From a virus, in IMG/VR virus record IMGVR_UViG_3300043775_001868, positions 1 to 22,993 of that record: DNA of 22,993 bases; one strand, 5' to 3'. Positions 3,866 through 22,526 of this stretch are shown here, one piece after another. Each line of letters begins with the position of its first letter. Position 1 is the first letter of the stretch. The notes under the pieces were generated by a model that was not told the origin of the DNA, searched no databases, and was given only the letters and a program-made list of their open reading frames with translations. The position numbers were made by a program, and so were the translations under genes.

Positions 3866-3923
3866 CTCGACTCGAAATCGAACGCAGGGCAACCTGCCGT
3901 GGGTTCAAATCCCACCCCTTCCG
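3866..3923 (+). other. attP core: 3' half of a tRNA-Ser(CGA)-like gene
   Basis: Sequence from the anticodon arm to the discriminator base of a class II tRNA. The anticodon loop is CTCGAAA (3871-3877, anticodon CGA) with a four-pair stem. A long variable arm GCAGG-GCAA-CCTGC lies at 3884-3897. The T arm is GTGGG-TTCAAAT-CCCAC at 3899-3915, then the 3' acceptor strand CCCTTCC (3916-3922) and G73 (3923). Upstream I find neither a D arm (no GG..A pattern) nor a 5' acceptor strand, so this is not a complete gene. A tRNA 3' half next to a tyrosine integrase is the classic phage attachment core, which rebuilds the host tRNA after integration. The crossover probably lies in the anticodon stem-loop. 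The left limit is approximate. Confidence 0.8.
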
Positions 3924-3926
3924 CTC

Positions 3927-3952
3927 CTCCAGTAAAGCCTCTGGAGCCTTTT
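3927..3952 (+). terminator. Hairpin after the tRNA-like core, possible terminator
   Basis: CTCCAG (3927-3932) pairs with CTGGAG (3941-3946) across an 8-base loop, followed by CCTTTT (3947-3952). It may be the tRNA terminator carried over from the host together with the att core, or the end of the lysis transcript. The T-run is short. The rest of the interval to 4030 is T-rich and shows no gene. Confidence 0.45.
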
Positions 3953-4076: not shown

Positions 4077-5075
4077 ATGAAACACAACCCCTATGCGGTG
4101 CGGTTTGAAGATTCGCGAAATCGATGGGTGCTGGATTTGAAGGCGTCCCATTTCGGGGATCGGAAACGGATGTTTTTTGAGACGGAGTTGGAGGCGCATT
4201 CGGAGGGGGCGCGGTTGGTGGATGTCTTGCGCGAGAAGGGGCGCGAGGGAGTGAGGAGCAAGGAGGGCGGGATGTCGGTGGCGGTGGCGACCCGGATGTT
4301 CGCAGCGGAGAACGCGACCAAATCGAAGTCGCATTTTGCGAAGGTCGAGATGTTGTGCCGGGAACTGTCCTCGAAATGGTCGGGGCCGTTGTCTGCCATC
4401 GAGCCGGTGGCGCTGACTCGGTGGCTTAACCAGACCTCGGATTCGCCGACCACCCGGGCGATGTGGTTTCGCTATGCTCGGATGTTTTTCCGATGGGCCG
4501 CGAGGATGAGGTTCATCGAGAGGTCGCCGGTCGAGGGGATGCGGTCTCCGAAGGCGACACCGGCGCGAAACATTTTGACGGCTTCGCAAATGAAGGAACT
4601 GCTCAAAGCGCCGATGCAGGATGATGTGAAGGCGCTGGTGCTGCTAGGCGGGTTCGCGGGCCTGCGGACCATCGAGGTGGCGCGGATGAATTGGGAGGAT
4701 GTGGATTTCAAATCGAAGCAAATCCACATTCGGCCCGAGGTCAGCAAACAGACCACCGGGATGCTGGAGCGAGTCGTAGACATGACCGAGCCGCTGGTGA
4801 AGCGGAGGGAATTTTTCAAAGGCAAAAAAGGTGTGATCGTGAAAGGATCGCTGGAGGCGTTGCATGAGGCTCGGCGGCGCGTGGCACTTGCTCTTGGCTG
4901 GGAGGGCTGGCCAGAGAATGCGCTTCGGCATTCGTTCGCGACCTACCACCTCGGTCGCTGCGGTAATGCGGGATTGACGGCCTACCAAATGGGTCACACC
5001 TCGCCAGCGATGGTGCAGCGGGTCTATGCGGTTCCCGCCGTGCGGGCAGATTGGAAGGCGTTCTGGAGGATTTGA
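4077..5075 (+). CDS. int: Tyrosine-recombinase integrase
   Basis: Encodes 332 residues from the ATG at 4077 (MKHNPYAVRF). An in-frame TTG at 4044 lies inside the arm repeats and is less likely. An N-terminal arm/core-binding region (to about residue 165) is followed by the catalytic domain. Visible residues are Arg197 (GLRTIE), likely Lys224, Arg284-His285 (NALRHSF), His307 (MGH) and the nucleophile Tyr317 (RVYA). The first His of the usual HxxR box is Asn281, a variation I believe also occurs in related integrases. It should catalyse attP x attB recombination at the adjacent tRNA-derived core. The gene is markedly G-rich on the coding strand (many codons ending in G), unlike the C-rich lysis and structural genes to its left, which suggests a different history. 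The downstream 5079 gene follows closely. Confidence 0.92.
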   Translation: MKHNPYAVRFEDSRNRWVLDLKASHFGDRKRMFFETELEAHSEGARLVDVLREKGREGVRSKEGGMSVAVATRMFAAENATKSKSHFAKVEMLCRELSSKWSGPLSAIEPVALTRWLNQTSDSPTTRAMWFRYARMFFRWAARMRFIERSPVEGMRSPKATPARNILTASQMKELLKAPMQDDVKALVLLGGFAGLRTIEVARMNWEDVDFKSKQIHIRPEVSKQTTGMLERVVDMTEPLVKRREFFKGKKGVIVKGSLEALHEARRRVALALGWEGWPENALRHSFATYHLGRCGNAGLTAYQMGHTSPAMVQRVYAVPAVRADWKAFWRI

Positions 5076-5270: not shown

Positions 5271-5335
5271 TTTCGCCCGCAAACCCAGTCTGCAAGCGGA
5301 TGTCAAGTGTTTTTTTATGGTAGGTGAACACCCCA

Positions 5336-5364
5336 TTGAAAAATAATTCTTGTGTGGTTTTAGT
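5336..5364 (+). promoter_or_regulatory. Possible promoter for the RHH regulator operon
   Basis: TTGAAA (5336-5341) with a 17-base spacer to TTTAGT (5359-5364). The -10 match is poor, but it lies inside the operator-like site O1 (5356-5368), as expected for an autorepressed promoter. The 120-base gap 5271-5390 otherwise shows a T-run (5311-5317) and no gene. Weak call. Confidence 0.3.
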
Positions 5365-5368
5365 AACC
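5356..5368 (+). promoter_or_regulatory. Operator-like site O1 (GGTTTTAGTAACC)
   Basis: A 13-bp sequence with dyad half-sites GGTT-N5-AACC, 23 bases before the first RHH gene. Identical copies occur at 5694 and 5764. A short dyad of this size suits an RHH dimer of dimers; the partner is inferred. Confidence 0.6.
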
Positions 5369-5390
5369 TCGGATAGGAATCTTCATCGTC

Positions 5391-5639
5391 ATGCCAAACC
5401 AACACTCCACCGACAAAGAAGTGATCGGATTTTATATCCCTCGCACATTGGCGGCACGGGTTCGCAAAGCTGCCAAATCCCGTGGGCTGACAATCACCGC
5501 TTTCATTGAAGAAACTCTTACCCATGCCACTCGCCAAACCACCCTCGCGCCGGAAGATTACCTCGCTATCGCCGAAGCCACAAAAAGAGCTGCTGGCCGT
5601 GTGGCTTCCAAGAGAGCTAGTCGCCAGAGTAAAAGTTGA
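5391..5639 (+). CDS. Ribbon-helix-helix DNA-binding protein 1
   Basis: Encodes 82 residues (MPNQHSTDKEVIGFYIPRTLA...). Residues about 10-43 fit an Arc/CopG-type RHH fold: a strand (EVIGFYIP), helix A (RTLAARVRKAAKSRG) and helix B beginning LTITAFIEETL. Such proteins dimerise and bind short palindromes. The 13-bp dyad O1 lies in its leader, so autorepression and a role in the lysogeny switch are plausible. An SD-like TAGGA sits about 11 bases before the ATG. The C-terminus (AGRVASKRASRQSKS) is low-complexity and basic because this frame runs through the DNA encoding the second RHH protein in another frame, so that tail may not be ancestral. Confidence is good for the fold, low for the precise role. 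Confidence 0.75.
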   Translation: MPNQHSTDKEVIGFYIPRTLAARVRKAAKSRGLTITAFIEETLTHATRQTTLAPEDYLAIAEATKRAAGRVASKRASRQSKS

Positions 5640-5745
5640 GGCGGCAGCAGGCAAAAGACCAACCAGTCGGCAGGTCGAGTTTTTTTTGGAGCAGGTTTTA
5701 GTAACCCGCCAAGTTAAAGACGCATACATAAAGTCTCTAGAATAA
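5524..5745 (+). CDS. Ribbon-helix-helix DNA-binding protein 2, overlapping paralogue
   Basis: Encodes 73 residues from the ATG at 5524; TTG 5506 or an internal GTG near the RHH strand are alternatives. The segment ELLAVWLPRELVARVKVEAAAGKRPTSRQVEFFLEQVL is split here only for naming: strand ELLAVWLP, helix RELVARVKVEAAAG, second helix TSRQVEFFLEQVL. It aligns residue by residue with protein 1 (IPR.LAARV against LPRELVARV, and both end in TRQ). The two look like tandem duplicates that now overlap by 116 bases in different frames (+1). Operator copy O2 lies inside its own 3' coding sequence (codons for QVLVTR). It probably binds the same sites, alone or as a heterodimer with protein 1. No strong SD is visible, so translation may depend on coupling. 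Confidence 0.65.
   Translation: MPLAKPPSRRKITSLSPKPQKELLAVWLPRELVARVKVEAAAGKRPTSRQVEFFLEQVLVTRQVKDAYIKSLE
5694..5706 (+). promoter_or_regulatory. Operator-like site O2 (GGTTTTAGTAACC)
   Basis: Identical to O1 over 13 bp, inside the 3' end of the second RHH gene and 70 bp upstream of O3. O2 and O3 also share the flanking A and C. Confidence 0.6.
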
Positions 5746-5763
5746 ACAATTTTTTTATAGAAA

Positions 5764-5776
5764 GGTTTTAGTAACC
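5764..5776 (+). promoter_or_regulatory. Operator-like site O3 over the excisionase-like start
   Basis: The third identical copy ends 1 base before the ATG at 5778 and overlaps the end of its SD (AGAAAGG, 5759-5765). A TATAGA (-10-like) lies at 5756-5761. Binding here could block both transcription and ribosome access. Confidence 0.6.
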
Positions 5777-5777
5777 C

Positions 5778-5981
5778 ATGAACATAATGATGACCGTAGA
5801 AGAAGCCGCGCAACTCACCGGCTACGCGCCATGGACGATCCGGCAGTTTTGTAACAAGGGGATGTTCACCGCCGAGAAGCCCCGTGGCGACCGTGGCGGC
5901 TGGCGCATCCTTCGGCCCTCGCTGGAGAAATGGTGGGCAGACAAGCGCCGTGCGAGCCTCAACACCCGGAGGGCTTCCTAA
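5778..5981 (+). CDS. Helix-turn-helix protein, excisionase/AlpA/MerR-like
   Basis: Encodes 67 residues. The first half has the classic pattern MTVEEAAQLTGYAPWTIRQFCNKGMF, where an HTH (VEEAAQLTGY-APWTIRQFCNKG) is followed by a short wing (KPRGDRGGWRILRPSLEKWW). This is the usual form of small excisionase or AlpA-type regulators (HTH_17). In a temperate phage it would act as the directionality factor at attP or as a transcription regulator of the lytic operon. It is the gene directly controlled by operator copy O3. Its stop TAA overlaps the next start by one base (TAATG). Which of the two roles it plays cannot be told from sequence. Confidence 0.8.
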   Translation: MNIMMTVEEAAQLTGYAPWTIRQFCNKGMFTAEKPRGDRGGWRILRPSLEKWWADKRRASLNTRRAS

Positions 5982-6663: not shown

Positions 6664-7509
6664 ATGAAAAATACAGAAACACAGATCGAAGTCAAACAAC
6701 CTCGGGCAACGGCGCTTGGCATCATGGCCGACCGCTTGTCCGTAGACCCCTCCAAACTCCTCGACACCCTCAAGGCAACTTGCTTCAAGGGCGCGAGCAA
6801 CGAAGAAATGCTGGCCTTGGTTGCCGTGAGCAACCGCTACGGGTTAGACCCACTCACCAAGCAAATCTACGCCTTCCCTAGCAAGGGCGGCATCACGCCG
6901 GTCGTCTCGGTGGACGGGTGGCTACACATCCTTAACTCGCAACCCCAATTCGACGGCATCGAGTTTTTGTTTGAGGATGGCCCGGACGGCAAACCGGCAT
7001 CGGTCACGGCGGTGGTCTACCGCAAGGATCGCACCCACGCGACCAAGGTGACCGAGTATTTTGCGGAATGCTACCGTCCCACGGAGCCGTGGAAACAATT
7101 CCCTCGCCGGATGCTTCGGCACAAGGCGGTGAAGGAGGCCGTGCGTGTGGCTTTTGGAATCTCCGGCATCACCGATGAGGACGAGGCCCGCGACATCGCC
7201 AAGAACACGGTGGCTTTTGAAAAGGTGCGGGTGGAGAAACCGGTGGCGGAAGCACCGAAGCTGATCGAGGTCGAGGCCGTGGCGGTTTCGGCTGATACCG
7301 AGGCAATTCCATCGGAAACCCCAAATTGGGCGGACGAATTGGAAAAGCGCATTTTCGAGCATGAGGCAAAGGTCAACGCCTTCCTCATTGCCAAAGGCCA
7401 GATCACTGAGGGCCAGACATTCCGCGACATCGCGGATGAGGGCTACCGCAACCGAGTGCTGTCGAACACGCCACGATTCATCGAGGCCGTTTTGAAGGAG
7501 GTCGCATGA
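6664..7509 (+). CDS. bet: Bet/RecT-family single-strand annealing protein
   Basis: Encodes 281 residues. The core matches the Redbeta/RecT annealase style: ALGIMADRLSVDPSKLLDTLKATCF, then LVAVSNRYGLDPLTKQIYAFPSKGGITPVVSVDGWL (as two halves), EFLFEDGP.., AVVYRKDRTHATKVTEYFAECYR and the helix MLRHKAVKEAVRVAFGISGI. This family anneals complementary single strands during phage recombination and replication. The C-terminal third is acidic and variable. It overlaps the exonuclease start by 4 bases (ATGA), the usual annealase-exonuclease pairing. It starts after the hairpin at 6601-6630, with a weak SD. A one-mismatch version of the phage motif (TTTCGGCTGATACCG, 7286-7300) lies in its coding sequence and is probably chance. 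Confidence 0.92.
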   Translation: MKNTETQIEVKQPRATALGIMADRLSVDPSKLLDTLKATCFKGASNEEMLALVAVSNRYGLDPLTKQIYAFPSKGGITPVVSVDGWLHILNSQPQFDGIEFLFEDGPDGKPASVTAVVYRKDRTHATKVTEYFAECYRPTEPWKQFPRRMLRHKAVKEAVRVAFGISGITDEDEARDIAKNTVAFEKVRVEKPVAEAPKLIEVEAVAVSADTEAIPSETPNWADELEKRIFEHEAKVNAFLIAKGQITEGQTFRDIADEGYRNRVLSNTPRFIEAVLKEVA

Positions 7510-17423: not shown

Positions 17424-17494
17424 TGCGGGGTAGTGAAGAGGCATCACACCAGTTTCATAATCTGGAATCCCGAGTTCGATTCTCGGCCCCGCTA
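17424..17494 (+). tRNA. tRNA with CAT anticodon (Met, or Ile if lysidine-modified)
   Basis: All conserved positions are present: T8, A9, A14, G18-G19, A21, a D stem GTGA/TCAC (17433-17436 with 17444-17447), and an anticodon loop TTCATAA with T33 and anticodon CAT (17456-17458). The T arm is CCGAG-TTCGATT-CTCGG (17470-17486). The acceptor pairs GCGGGG with CCCCGC. Positions 1-72 are T-T, unpaired; 31-39 is also T-T. The three G-C pairs of an initiator anticodon stem are absent, and Y11-R24 is elongator-like. No CCA is encoded. Phage motif copy 7 begins 2 bases after it. Confidence 0.9.
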
Positions 17495-18659: not shown

Positions 18660-20768
18660 ATGACAGACATCCAAATCTGCAACCTCGCCCTCGCCCGCCT
18701 CGGTGATTCCCACATCACCGCACTCACGGACGCGACCGCGCAGGCGCAGTATTGCTCTCTGTTCTACACGCAGACGGTCGAGGAACTCCAAGCCGAGTTC
18801 GATTGGCAATTCTGCCGCAAGCAGGTTTCCCTCACCAGCGGAACGGTCCCGCTCACCGGCTATTCCACGCAGTATGCCCTGCCCACTGACTTCATCCGGG
18901 CGATCCGCCTTGGCAATATCGACGCCAGCGAAAATTTCGGCACTTGGGAAATCGTTGGAACCAATCTCCACACGAACCTTACCTCTCCGGTCGCGCTCGA
19001 CTACATCGCCAATATCACGACGACCACCTCGTTCCCGGCGATCTTCACCGAACTTCTTTCGATCAAACTCGCCGCCGTCCTCGCTATGCCGCTCACCGGC
19101 AGCAAGGACTTGTTCACCCAACTCGCCGAGGTCTACGGCGCGACATTGCAAAAGCCCGCTTTCCTCCACGCCACCGAGCGGGTCGGCAGGCAACGCGCCA
19201 CCAATTCCATCGGCACGCAGGCCGACATCGTCCGGCTTGCCATCCTTAAGACCGGCACCGCTGATGGCTACAAGCCCAACGGACAAGCCGCGATGTTGGG
19301 TAACAGCTTCTACGAACAAGCCCGCAACGAACTTCTTTCGGAGTTCGATTGGTCGTTTGCCCGCACCTCGGCCTCGATCACCGCCGATGCAGCAAACCCC
19401 GTCACCGGCTACGCCAGACGCTATGCCCTGCCCGCTGGGGCGCTCACCGTGCTTCGGGTCAACGAGGTCGATGCCAGTGAGAATTTCTCGGTCTGGGAGG
19501 TGGTCGGGGGATTCATCCACACCGAAGCCGCCTCGCCGATCCTTGCGGAGTTCACCACGACCGTTACCGACATCACTAGATTCCCTGCGATCTTCATCGA
19601 CCTTCTTGTGAACAAGATCGCCATGCGCCTCGCCATGACGACCGGCGATGCGGGCCGCATGGAAATCCTTGCCAAGGAAACCGAGTTCGTTTTCCAGAAG
19701 CCCGGCTTTTCAAAAGCGATTGAGAAAATCGCACCAATCCGGCCATCGGTCGCATTGAGCGCCACGGAAATCTGCAAGCAGGCCGTCATGCGTCTTGGAA
19801 CCACGGACTCGCTAAGTCAGACCGGCGGACACCCAGCTTTGTTCGCCCATTCCTTCTACGAACAGGCGCTGGAAGAACTTCTCGCGGACCTCCCGTGGGC
19901 CTTTGCCAAGAAGCAGGTCAGCATCGCCGTCAACGCCACCGCTCCGACCCAAGGCTACGCGAGACGCTACGCGATTCCCACGGATTTCTTGCAACTCATC
20001 CGAGTCAACCAAATCGATACAAGCGAAAATTTCGGCCAATGGGAGATCGTCGGCGGGTTCCTGCACACCGACCTCGGAACGCCGATCATCATCGACTACA
20101 CGGCCAACATCACCGATGTGACGCAATTCCCGCCTCCCTTCGTTGAGGCGCTCATCGCCCGGATCGCCGCCAAGATCGCGCTTCCCCTCACGGCCAAGCC
20201 CGACATCGCCACCGCGCTTGCTCAAGCCGCAGCGGAAACTCTCAACCGCCCGACCATCCAAATCCTCATCGAGAAATCGGCCAAGCCCCGCGCAGGGTCC
20301 GCCGCCAACTCGGTCTCCGAGATTTGCCGCCAAGCCATCCTCAAGGTGGGCAGCGCCGAAGCCTTCAAGCCCTACGGGGAGCCGATGGCCATCGCGACCA
20401 GTCTCTTTGACCAGACGCGCAACGAACTCCTCGCCGACTTCGATTGGCAGTTCGCTCGCATCCAATCCTCCCTCACCGCCGATGGGACGCCGCCCGCCTT
20501 CGGCTACACGACCCGCTACGCCCTGCCCAGCGCCACCCTCAAGGTGCTTCGCGTCAATGGCGTGGACGAGGATGAGAACTTTGGAAACTGGGAAATTGTC
20601 GGTGGGTTCTTGCACACGAATTTCACTTCCCCGATCCGCATCGAGACGACGGCCATCGTGTCCGACGCCACTAAATTCCCGCCGGTCTTCGTGAACATGC
20701 TCACGGTCACCCTCGCGATGAAACTTTCCCAACTCATGGATTTCCAAGCCGCCCCAGCCGCCCGCTAA
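18660..20768 (+). CDS. Tail adaptor protein with four tandem gp11-like domains
   Basis: Encodes 702 residues. Four units of ~180 residues, each a version of the T7 gp11-type tail-tube/adaptor domain, begin near residues 1, 187, 368 and 552. Each repeats I(C)x(L/Q)A(I/V)x(R/K)xG at the start, then (F/Y)EQxxxELLxxFDWxFA, a strand GYxxRYALP, (V/I)LRVNxxDxSENFxxWE(I/V)VGGFLHT, and xxFPxxFxxxLxxxxAxxLA. T7 gp11 is one such domain of about 200 residues, assembled as a ring below the portal; here four are chained. The last unit lacks its normal C-terminal helix, which instead begins the next reading frame, in the same frame after one TAA. It follows the capsid gene and has a weak SD. Confidence 0.85.
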   Translation: MTDIQICNLALARLGDSHITALTDATAQAQYCSLFYTQTVEELQAEFDWQFCRKQVSLTSGTVPLTGYSTQYALPTDFIRAIRLGNIDASENFGTWEIVGTNLHTNLTSPVALDYIANITTTTSFPAIFTELLSIKLAAVLAMPLTGSKDLFTQLAEVYGATLQKPAFLHATERVGRQRATNSIGTQADIVRLAILKTGTADGYKPNGQAAMLGNSFYEQARNELLSEFDWSFARTSASITADAANPVTGYARRYALPAGALTVLRVNEVDASENFSVWEVVGGFIHTEAASPILAEFTTTVTDITRFPAIFIDLLVNKIAMRLAMTTGDAGRMEILAKETEFVFQKPGFSKAIEKIAPIRPSVALSATEICKQAVMRLGTTDSLSQTGGHPALFAHSFYEQALEELLADLPWAFAKKQVSIAVNATAPTQGYARRYAIPTDFLQLIRVNQIDTSENFGQWEIVGGFLHTDLGTPIIIDYTANITDVTQFPPPFVEALIARIAAKIALPLTAKPDIATALAQAAAETLNRPTIQILIEKSAKPRAGSAANSVSEICRQAILKVGSAEAFKPYGEPMAIATSLFDQTRNELLADFDWQFARIQSSLTADGTPPAFGYTTRYALPSATLKVLRVNGVDEDENFGNWEIVGGFLHTNFTSPIRIETTAIVSDATKFPPVFVNMLTVTLAMKLSQLMDFQAAPAAR

Positions 20769-22526
20769 ATGAAGACCGAGGAACTTTTCAAAGAACTCCA
20801 GTTCCTCGCCGGGAAGCCCGCATTGAAAAATGCGGTCGAGACCCGCGCCTCCTCGCGCCCCTCCTCCGCGCTCACCGAGGACGAACTCTGCCGCCAAGCG
20901 ATCTTGCGGGTCGGCACCGCCGAGCAGTTCGGCCCCTCCTCGCAGGCGATGCTCCTCGCCAAGTCCCTCTACCCGCAGGTTCGCGATGCGCTCCTCCTCG
21001 CCGGATCGTGGACATGGGCAATGAAGGCCACGACGGTCACCGAATCCCTCCCGCGCCCGGAATACAAGTGGGCATACCGCTACGCGATCCCCGCCGACTG
21101 CCTGCGCGTCTTCCGGGTCAATGACTACGACTACTCGACCGGCGACTCGGCATGGGAAGTCGCTGGCAATTTCGTCCTCACCAATGCCGATTCCGGCTCG
21201 CCCGCATGGGTCACCGGTCGCGTCTACGAGGTCGGCAATGCAGTCTCCAACAACGGCGCGGTTTACCGCTGCCTGGTTGCCGGTTCGACCAAGCAACCCG
21301 GCGTCACCTCCAGTTGGACGACCGATTGGGATGTCTGGCTCGGCACGGCGATCACGCTGGAATATGTCAAGAAAGTGACCGAGGTCACCCTCTTCGACTC
21401 CCTCTTCATCGATCTCCTCACGGCCAATCTCGCCTCCAAGCTCGCGGTTCCTCTCACCGGCGATGCCAACAAAGCCGCGCTCCTTGCGAAGGAAACCGAA
21501 CTCCTCGGCAAAAGCCCCGCGATGCGCCGGGATTCCACCGAGCGCAAAGGCCGGATCAAGCCTGCGTGGATGTCCTCCAAACTCGTCTCCTCCCGCAATG
21601 GCGGCGATGGGGTCGATGCCGCGCAGGTCAGCGGAGGCGGTCCCGCAGGCGGCGTTAGCTACCCCTCGCTCCTTGTCACCGTGGGATCGGTCACCAACCT
21701 CCCCACGGGAGCGACTCCCACCGTCACCAACACCGGCACAAACGACACGGCGGTTCTGAATTTCGGTCTCCCCCAAGGCCCAGCCGGAACGGTCAATGTC
21801 GGCACGACCACCACCGGAGCCGCAGGCACCAATGCCAGCGTTGCCGCCACCGGCACCCCGGAGAACCGCGTTCTCAATTTCACCATCCCTCGCGGAGACC
21901 AAGGCATCCAAGGCATTCAAGGATTGCAAGGAAACACCGGCCCCGTTGGTCCCGCGAATTCCCTTTCCATCGGCACGGTCACCGCTGGCCCGACCGCTGC
22001 GGCCACAATCACCGGCACCGCTCCGAACCAGACCCTCAACCTCACCCTCCAGCAGTCCGCGCTCCTCTCCTCGGCGAAAACCACGCTGACCGGCAACGGG
22101 GTTCTCCGCACTTTCTCGGTTTCCGGCCTCAAATCGAGCGACCCGAACCATGTCATTGTGGCGATCAACGGAGTCGTGCAGGAACCCACCACCGACTACC
22201 TCGTCAACCAAGGCGCAGGCACGATCACTTTCACCACCGCGATCCCGAACGGCGCGAAAATCGTCGTCGTTGCCCTTGGTCTCTACTCGCCCACCACCCA
22301 GCGCGACCCGGACAACTTCATCCACTCCTTCGCCCTCAACACCGCAGGCACCTTCAGCTACTACGGACTGCTCCTCAATTCCGACATCCCCGCCACTGGC
22401 TCCGCCGCCGCCGTGGCCAAGTGGATCATCACCCGCTCCGCGCTTTCTGCCGCCGGAGCCGTCACTGCCACCGCCCAAGCGACCAATGTCGCGTGGACCA
22501 ACCGGGAGACCGCCACCTACGCATGA
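20769..22526 (+). CDS. Adaptor-fibre fusion: fifth gp11-like domain plus tail-fibre-like C-terminus
   Basis: Encodes 585 residues. It starts at the ATG directly after the TAA of the previous gene, in the same frame. Residues 1-35 (MKTEELFKELQFLAGKPALK...) match the end of an adaptor unit, so they complete unit 4. Residues about 36-280 are adaptor unit 5, interrupted at about 146-193 by a module (WVTGRVYEVGNAVSNNGAVYRCLV...W) like a CBM5/12 carbohydrate-binding domain. Then come three ~35-residue beta repeats (VTVGSVTNLPTGATPTV.. ; VNVGTTTTGAAGTNASV.. ; LSIGTVTAGPTAAATI..), a short collagen-like run (GDQGIQGIQGLQGNTGPVG) and a trimer-type fibre end. It may join the tail ring to receptor-binding fibres. 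The stop overlaps the next start (ATGA). Confidence 0.8.
   Translation: MKTEELFKELQFLAGKPALKNAVETRASSRPSSALTEDELCRQAILRVGTAEQFGPSSQAMLLAKSLYPQVRDALLLAGSWTWAMKATTVTESLPRPEYKWAYRYAIPADCLRVFRVNDYDYSTGDSAWEVAGNFVLTNADSGSPAWVTGRVYEVGNAVSNNGAVYRCLVAGSTKQPGVTSSWTTDWDVWLGTAITLEYVKKVTEVTLFDSLFIDLLTANLASKLAVPLTGDANKAALLAKETELLGKSPAMRRDSTERKGRIKPAWMSSKLVSSRNGGDGVDAAQVSGGGPAGGVSYPSLLVTVGSVTNLPTGATPTVTNTGTNDTAVLNFGLPQGPAGTVNVGTTTTGAAGTNASVAATGTPENRVLNFTIPRGDQGIQGIQGLQGNTGPVGPANSLSIGTVTAGPTAAATITGTAPNQTLNLTLQQSALLSSAKTTLTGNGVLRTFSVSGLKSSDPNHVIVAINGVVQEPTTDYLVNQGAGTITFTTAIPNGAKIVVVALGLYSPTTQRDPDNFIHSFALNTAGTFSYYGLLLNSDIPATGSAAAVAKWIITRSALSAAGAVTATAQATNVAWTNRETATYA
21204..21347 (+). other. Carbohydrate-binding-like module inserted in adaptor unit 5
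   Basis: About 48 codons lie between the strands that are adjacent in the other four units (GGFLHTD..GTPIIIDY there; NFVLTNADSGS - insert - GTAITLEY here). The insert has W147, VY153, G156, NNGAVYRC and two later Trp residues, as in CBM5/12 domains. Sugar binding is inferred. Confidence 0.6.

Follow-up and report, generated by a model that had tools for sequence, protein, structure and literature searches.

A candidate control module of overlapping ribbon-helix-helix genes and three repeated operators in Verrucomicrobiota phages

Among the closest described systems is that of the small ribbon-helix-helix (RHH) regulators Arc and Mnt of phage P22. Arc heads its operon and represses its own promoter, and Arc and Mnt are accessory to a CI-type repressor (c2), with one shared operator region. 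The locus described here resembles this system in encoding small phage RHH regulators, and searches with its two proteins (RHH1 and RHH2) find structures of the Arc, CopG, and VapB type. However, in contrast to P22, the two RHH genes overlap and three identical candidate operators are present (O1, O2, and O3), one of them inside the second gene. With lambda-type CI/Cro control, the locus shares a few like operators that would act on an early promoter, although in this case the operators extend over ~400 bp, one of them is intragenic, no divergent repressor promoter is seen, and no HTH_3 or Peptidase_S24 protein is found in 11 phage records. Also, RHH antitoxins (VapB, MazE, FitA, and ParD) have the same DNA-binding fold and autoregulate through palindromic operators, but a type II toxin-antitoxin pair was rejected here, there being no toxin gene, the second gene itself encoding an RHH protein and the next one an HTH protein.

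A further comparison is given by the stoperators of mycobacteriophage L5 and other cluster A phages, repressor sites of ~13 bp, some at promoters and most near gene boundaries, that lie mostly in one orientation relative to transcription and whose words diverge with the repressor and set immunity specificity; in the L5 type, the repressor is a monomer that combines an HTH with a stoperator domain and acts on 20-30 asymmetric sites throughout the genome (PMC9283540, PMC6550527). The sites reported here are alike in being of ~13 bp, in lying at a promoter or near gene ends, in mostly having a single orientation, and in having words that change in step with RHH1 residues. In contrast, the protein is of the RHH type, the sites are palindromic or nearly so, and there are three per genome, one of them being inverted in some lineages; neither 20-30 sites nor a monomeric protein joining HTH and stoperator domains was found. 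With regard to the blocking of elongation of the L5 type, the near-background promoter scores of O2 and O3 are compatible with a roadblock.

The RHH gene pair and its sites in the window

The window (the whole stretch of DNA analyzed, 22,993 bases) is an entire IMG/VR record and corresponds to a tailed-phage genome or a fragment of one, with almost every gene on the + strand. Pfam and PHROG matches identify the large terminase subunit, a tyrosine integrase, recT, a DnaC-like loader, and an HTH/excisionase-like gene. Other reading frames look structural. The integrase gene (4086..5075, +; PF00589 1.5e-10, phrog_1 9e-31) lies upstream of the RHH module. The first gene 3' of the module (5778..5981, +) matches HTH_17 (2.5e-7) and phrog_66, "excisionase and transcriptional regulator" (2.8e-7), so that the label excisionase-like, given to it in an earlier note made from the sequence, is a fair one. 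RecT annealing protein (6664..7509, +; PF03837 8e-26) is encoded by the first large gene of the downstream early operon.

Just upstream of the integrase gene, positions 3876-3931 resemble the 3' half of a tRNA-Leu (variable arm, T arm, CTTCCGC) rather than a full tRNA, and this fragment is likely the attachment core. Also, a tRNA-Met (CAT) gene is located at 17424-17494, between scaffold-like and coat-like genes, and in two adjacent reading frames of 702 and 585 aa (18660-22526), a domain of the type IC-LALxRLG...FDWxFxRxQxS recurs several times, the repeats being in tandem in one of the two proteins.

RHH1 (82 aa; 5391..5639, +), the predicted operator reader, matches phrog_582 (Arc-like) and phrog_7325 (CopG-like, 1.8e-4). 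Its paralogue RHH2 (73 aa; 5524..5745, +; RHH_5 1.5e-4) is encoded in the +1 frame, with the ATG at 5524 as its putative start, and overlaps RHH1 by 116 bases. The similarity of this overlapping pair, claimed in the earlier note, is borne out by BLASTP (36% over 47 aa, E=8e-6) and by profile-profile comparison (probability 96%, E=6e-9). Both proteins belong to the RHH superfamily: profile and fold searches with either return RHH proteins, including VapB, Arc, CopG, and AmrZ. For RHH1, the profile matches to solved RHH proteins are VapB26, MazE7, SvtR, AvtR, and Arc, and the top Foldseek matches are VapB, Arc, and CopG, all of them with E>0.1 because the domain is short; RHH2 also matches RHH structures by Foldseek. 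The RHH1 of the window is itself below the Pfam cut-offs, and RHH_1 is matched by 10 of 20 RHH1 homologues at E<=0.01 (best 4.4e-6). Moreover, the RHH2 homologues L113 and L111 exceed the Pfam cut-off for Arc, and the latter also that for FitA-like_RHH.

Judging from substitution patterns, translation takes place in both frames. Among 21 window-type sequences, the variation in the stretch encoding only RHH1 is 0.280 at RHH1 third positions versus 0.082 and 0.022 at the other two, and in the part of the overlap encoding the RHH2 domain (offsets 191-248), it is 0.286 at RHH2 third positions versus 0.155 at RHH1 third positions. The RHH2 pattern persists past the end of RHH1, and in the first part of the overlap, variation follows RHH1 only. 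The earlier note had treated the second frame as a gene, and this codon-position variation in the 21 sequences places it under coding constraint. A frameshift fusion of RHH1 and RHH2 was rejected, since the A7-A8 run of Akkermansia-type loci is only A4-A5 in the window family and so is not conserved. The codons for EDYE, a conserved motif of RHH1, contain the ATG of RHH2 when read in the +1 frame (GAY-TAT-GAR), as seen in L056 (1978-2193) and in most Akkermansia-side lineages, and the motif may be kept partly by this dual coding.

Three exact copies of the 13-mer GGTTTTAGTAACC, all on the + strand, are present in the window and nowhere else in the record, in the places first noted: O1 (5356..5368) is on the -10 element of the RHH1 promoter, O2 (5694..5706) is embedded at the end of RHH2 helix B, and O3 (5764..5776) is between RHH2 and the HTH gene, ending 1 base ahead of the ATG at 5778. 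The next best matches in the window have 3 mismatches, and shuffles yield ~2 such weak matches. In Markov simulations of the window locus, a 13-mer from the upstream 110 bp with two more copies (<=1 mismatch) was obtained in 0 of 150. Replication iterons, attachment arm sites, and partition sites were rejected as identities of the repeats, the copies being too few and no ParA-like neighbor having been noticed; for arm sites, the tRNA-like attachment fragment is 1.4 kb away.

The RHH1 promoter is sigma-70-like (5336..5364, +), with TTGAAA at 5336-5341, a 17-bp spacer, and TTTAGT at 5359-5364 (9/12 consensus matches). A stricter simple scanner listed no promoter in the window, since this -10 has no A at position 2; at the same place, relatives have TTGACG or TTGACA and TATAGT or TATAAT. 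The mean promoter score at O1 is 9.46, compared with 7.11 at random positions, and it is at least 9 in 16 of 26 cases, whereas the scores at O2 (8.06) and O3 (7.92) are near background, and in a few lineages, O2 or O3 does overlap promoter-like sequence. The site has GGT-N7-ACC symmetry, and O1 lies between or on the -35 and -10 in most lineages, being exactly between them in some, for example in L049 (TTGACG-TGGGTTATAGTAACCGA-TAGACT). As judged from this placement, O1 would be a promoter operator. For O2 and O3, the usual lack of a recognizable promoter means that the excisionase-like gene would more likely be governed through control of read-through or through looping than by a second promoter operator.

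Relatives and variation of the operator word

The gene pair was sought in relatives, and the layout recurs in many related phages. Scans of IMG/VR found the O2-O3 pair in 21 stretches, the O1-O2 pair in 27, and a close RHH1 relative in 26 loci, and the alignment places O1 and O2 at fixed positions in all these relatives. Scanning of genomes contributed Akkermansia muciniphila (L047) and a Verrucomicrobiales MAG (L049), where RHH1 is ~30% identical to that of the window. The position of O1 is kept in all 30 W-type (window-type) and Akkermansia-type loci read, one clade having at O1 GGTTATAGTAACC, which extends the palindrome arms to five. Moreover, the pattern GGTTWTAGTAACC, in which one base of the 13-mer may vary, is found exactly three times and in a single orientation in 11 of 11 whole records besides the window, including a 2.9-Mb Akkermansia genome. 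None of 295 Bacillota genomes matched the profile, this sample being apparently skewed to small genomes and without a positive control. A pattern match in a Bacilli MAG (L048) was rejected as a coincidence, corresponding to a CRISPR array with a repeat that starts GTTTTAGTAACC; in this type II-like array (L048 5847-6800, reverse; repeat GTTTTAGTAACCTAAGAATTTTTGCTATGCTAATAC), a spacer with G as its last base gives an operator look-alike.

The gene that follows O3 is not the same in all relatives. O3 is lost in L032 and L033, half decayed in L034, and in L041 and L043 it is missing from its usual place and present inside recT, 1.2 kb on; therefore, three sites are not obligatory. L041 (84-308) and L043 (2400-2558) also have a third RHH gene (MPNQRDPKKTRIAIWLLPEERK...), ~115-340 bases upstream of RHH1.

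The 13 bases of O2 are invariant among the 21 window-type sequences. O2 has a fixed place in the RHH2 fold, as a by-product of a conserved RHH2 protein motif would. However, the residues encoded at O2 are the translation of the noncoding O1 word of the same genome (GFSNL, GLTNL, GVVHL, GDNHL, and GGEPP), and in Akkermansia-type loci, the same O2 DNA is read in another RHH2 codon phase (GFSNL, compared with VLVT in the window family), so that it is the DNA and not the protein that is conserved. On these two grounds, a protein-motif origin was rejected, and we give it hardly any credence. An operator kept inside a dual-coding region would mean that selection at the DNA level overrides protein sequence.

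The site could also act in RNA as a hairpin (GGUU-UUAGU-AACC), and in the window family, every copy indeed has the sense orientation. Nonetheless, the 4-bp stem is weak, and because O1 overlaps or precedes the -10, it would be outside the RHH1 transcript. Moreover, O1 is inverted relative to O2 and O3 in L092 and relative to O2 in L156, for which the hairpin was rejected as very improbable. The inverted O1 of L092 argues for DNA over RNA and also against a strict orientation dependence at O1.

The only named phage found with the RHH1 of the window is Akkermansia phage DTMo-2021a, where RHH1 and RHH2 are arranged as in the window and the three sites are GGTGGTTAACCACC, GGTGGTGAACCACC, and GGTGGTGAACCACC. 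Profile searches of genomes from Verrucomicrobiota, the phylum to which the gut bacterium Akkermansia belongs, yielded about two dozen additional RHH1 lineages. The word is identical or nearly so at all copies in a genome and differs between lineages, with at least 14 words, for example, GGTGGTKAACCACC, GGTTTRACAAACC, and GGTGTASTACACC, further lineages having GGTTTAACAAACC, GGTTTGACAAACC, GGTGATAATCACC, AGGGTCTAGACCCT, GGTGCTARCACC, GGTGTTAAACACC, GGTGTAAGACACC, GGTGTAAACAACC, GGTCTAAGACACC, GGTATGTTATACC, and GGTTCACTGAACC. Most of them fit GGT-N7-ACC, and in the half-sites, GGT is common and bases 4-6 vary, a comparison where identity within a lineage is partly by construction, the words having been grouped by similarity. 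With no palindrome or GGT filter, at least two downstream copies of an upstream 13-mer were recovered in ~18 of ~26 RHH1 lineages, versus 1 of ~5,400 simulated regions. For example, GGTTTRACAAACC has three copies in five of the six carrier genomes and two in the sixth, and among 14 non-carriers, a single copy occurs in one. A viral scan for paired GGTTTGACAAACC found nothing. Only two copies are seen in several lineages, and one or none in the homologues L091, L105, L137, and L157.

Many of these other loci have integrase, RecT, exonuclease, or packaging-gene homologues nearby and are therefore prophage-like, and a few, such as L181, look like chromosomal remnants without O2 and O3. One contig (G227:C2) has tandem RHH1-type genes (L094 and L103) with different strands and the words GGTTTAACAAACC and GGTGTAAACAACC.

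The protein that reads the site

The strand of RHH1 was aligned to that of Arc, and the three outward residues were taken as the predicted DNA contacts. Over 19-22 lineages, with residues and words hand-picked and the tests therefore supportive and short of proof, word distance follows the distance in RHH1 contact residues (Mantel r=0.447, P=0.0002), compared with only 0.221 for RHH1 core residues, and covariation with RHH2 contact residues was not detected (0.105, P=0.10). The association remains when the distance of the two helices is regressed out (partial Mantel r=0.352, P=0.0002) and also among pairs that are <50% identical. Moreover, G at base 4 of the word is present in 11 of 11 lineages with R or W at the middle contact residue and in 2 of 14 others (Fisher P=2e-5, the lineages being not fully independent). 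L092 and L107 have helices that are 70% alike, with both the strands (IRSIQIP and VAFVRVP) and the words (GGTTTAACAAACC and GGTGTAAACAACC) different, whereas L092 and L094, at 67%, have strand and word in common.

These comparisons point to RHH1, rather than RHH2, as the reader of the operator. RHH2 alone, or an RHH1-RHH2 heteromer, could be thought of for the same role, as RHH2, itself a paralogue of the RHH type, is constrained as a coding sequence, O2 is always inside its gene, and asymmetric sites such as GGTGTAAACAACC could suit a hetero-oligomer; however, the strand residues of RHH2 vary widely under the constant W/Akkermansia word, without covariation, and we regard this assignment as improbable. 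That the 13-bp site would be the DNA operator of an RHH regulator is thus supported on the RHH1 side. Of the earlier proposal that the RHH proteins govern themselves and the excisionase-like gene, the part that stands is that the sites behave as RHH operators, with RHH1 and not RHH2 indicated as their reader.

Proposed mechanism and role in lysogeny

The best explanation for the whole, to which we assign a probability of roughly 60%, would be a control module of a temperate phage with RHH1 as autorepressor. Its computed part comprises the sites, their concerted change, the covariation of RHH1 with the word, the translation of both frames, and the overlap of O1 with the promoter. The inferred part (binding, roadblock, lysogeny role, and the role of RHH2) would be as follows. 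RHH1 would recognize the palindrome of the 13-bp operator in DNA, two RHH dimers probably joining so that each takes one GGT half-site, and at O1 would occlude the -35 and -10 of its own promoter. On O2 and O3, which lie right where the two RHH genes end, it would act in a stoperator-like way, blocking the transcripts that escape O1 before they reach the early genes (the HTH/excisionase-like gene, recT, exonuclease, and replication genes); RHH1 and RHH2 would still be made. Also, O2 and O3 may hold O1 in a loop. RHH2 would be a translated paralogue that most likely modulates RHH1, for example, by partnering or antagonizing it.

Across lineages, O1 is 16-98 bp before RHH1, O2 follows at about +250 to +390, where helix B of RHH2 ends, and O3 is ~26-75 bp beyond O2. 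The O1-O2 spacing of 280-435 bp in all lineages is within the range in which a loop could form, oligomers of higher order are formed by RHH proteins on DNA, and O2 and O3 are mostly without promoters, all of which would suit a mechanism in which RHH1 reads the three sites and O2 and O3 are auxiliary, loading O1 cooperatively by DNA looping (like lac O2 and O3) with no roadblock. However, the spacings are out of helical register and freely variable (26-75 bp for O2-O3), and looping leaves unexplained the precise position of O2 and O3 at the ends of the RHH genes. Looping alone is therefore considered rather unlikely.

With respect to lysogeny, the earlier note spoke of a switch without a CI-type repressor, and a Pfam HTH_3 or Peptidase_S24 repressor, the two families covered, was found in 0 of 11 phage records, some of them fragments and one, that of Akkermansia phage DTMo-2021a, called complete; control genomes were positive. 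On the scope of these two families, RHH1 is therefore the best candidate for the lysogeny repressor, and we infer that the RHH1/RHH2 module may hold lysogeny. Negative autoregulation alone would be an unusual means of holding it, which counts against this explanation. Alternatively, RHH1 would serve in early lytic regulation in the manner of Cro or Arc, damping its own operon following infection, with lysogeny held by another, unrecognized repressor. The genes arc and cro likewise head operons running in the early-gene direction, as does the RHH1-RHH2 operon, and negative autoregulation fits such a role. Nonetheless, the result of 0 of 11 for HTH_3 and S24 speaks against it, as does the diversification of operator words across lineages in the manner of immunity specificities, and this early role appears doubtful, if somewhat less so than looping alone. 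The autorepressor reading can be extended to a widespread switch of Verrucomicrobiota phages without CI, where RHH1 shuts its own promoter and stops read-through at operators contained in the end of the overlapping RHH2 gene, and words and strands co-diversify into immunity groups; this extension is put forward tentatively, with the odds somewhat against it. It predicts that a lysogen would be immune only against phages of the same word. Akkermansia prophages inducible by mitomycin are known (PMC8008629).

The open-access papers and annotations searched contain no description of the module (most subscription journals were outside this scope), and the three-operator RHH layout in Verrucomicrobiota phages suggests a phage on/off switch of a kind not yet described. 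If true, it would provide, as far as found, the first candidate for an immunity system in phages of this phylum, including those of Akkermansia. Moreover, the lineages would constitute a natural series of matched RHH repressor-operator pairs in which rules of strand-to-base recognition are testable.

Annotation misses the module, as in pJ30893 (NZ_AP021899.1, L188), a circular 32.8-kb Akkermansia plasmid in which an integrase is encoded near an RHH1 homologue and which may be a phage genome of the DTMo-2021a kind; here, RHH1 is inside a longer hypothetical protein, and RHH2 is matched by no listed gene. Finally, the window has another palindrome, GGTGAACACC, upstream of the -35 (5323-5332), which in several relatives reads GGTGATCACC; it is located at about -66 to -68 from RHH1 in most, not all, window-type loci. 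This palindrome could be a site of RHH2 or of another regulator.
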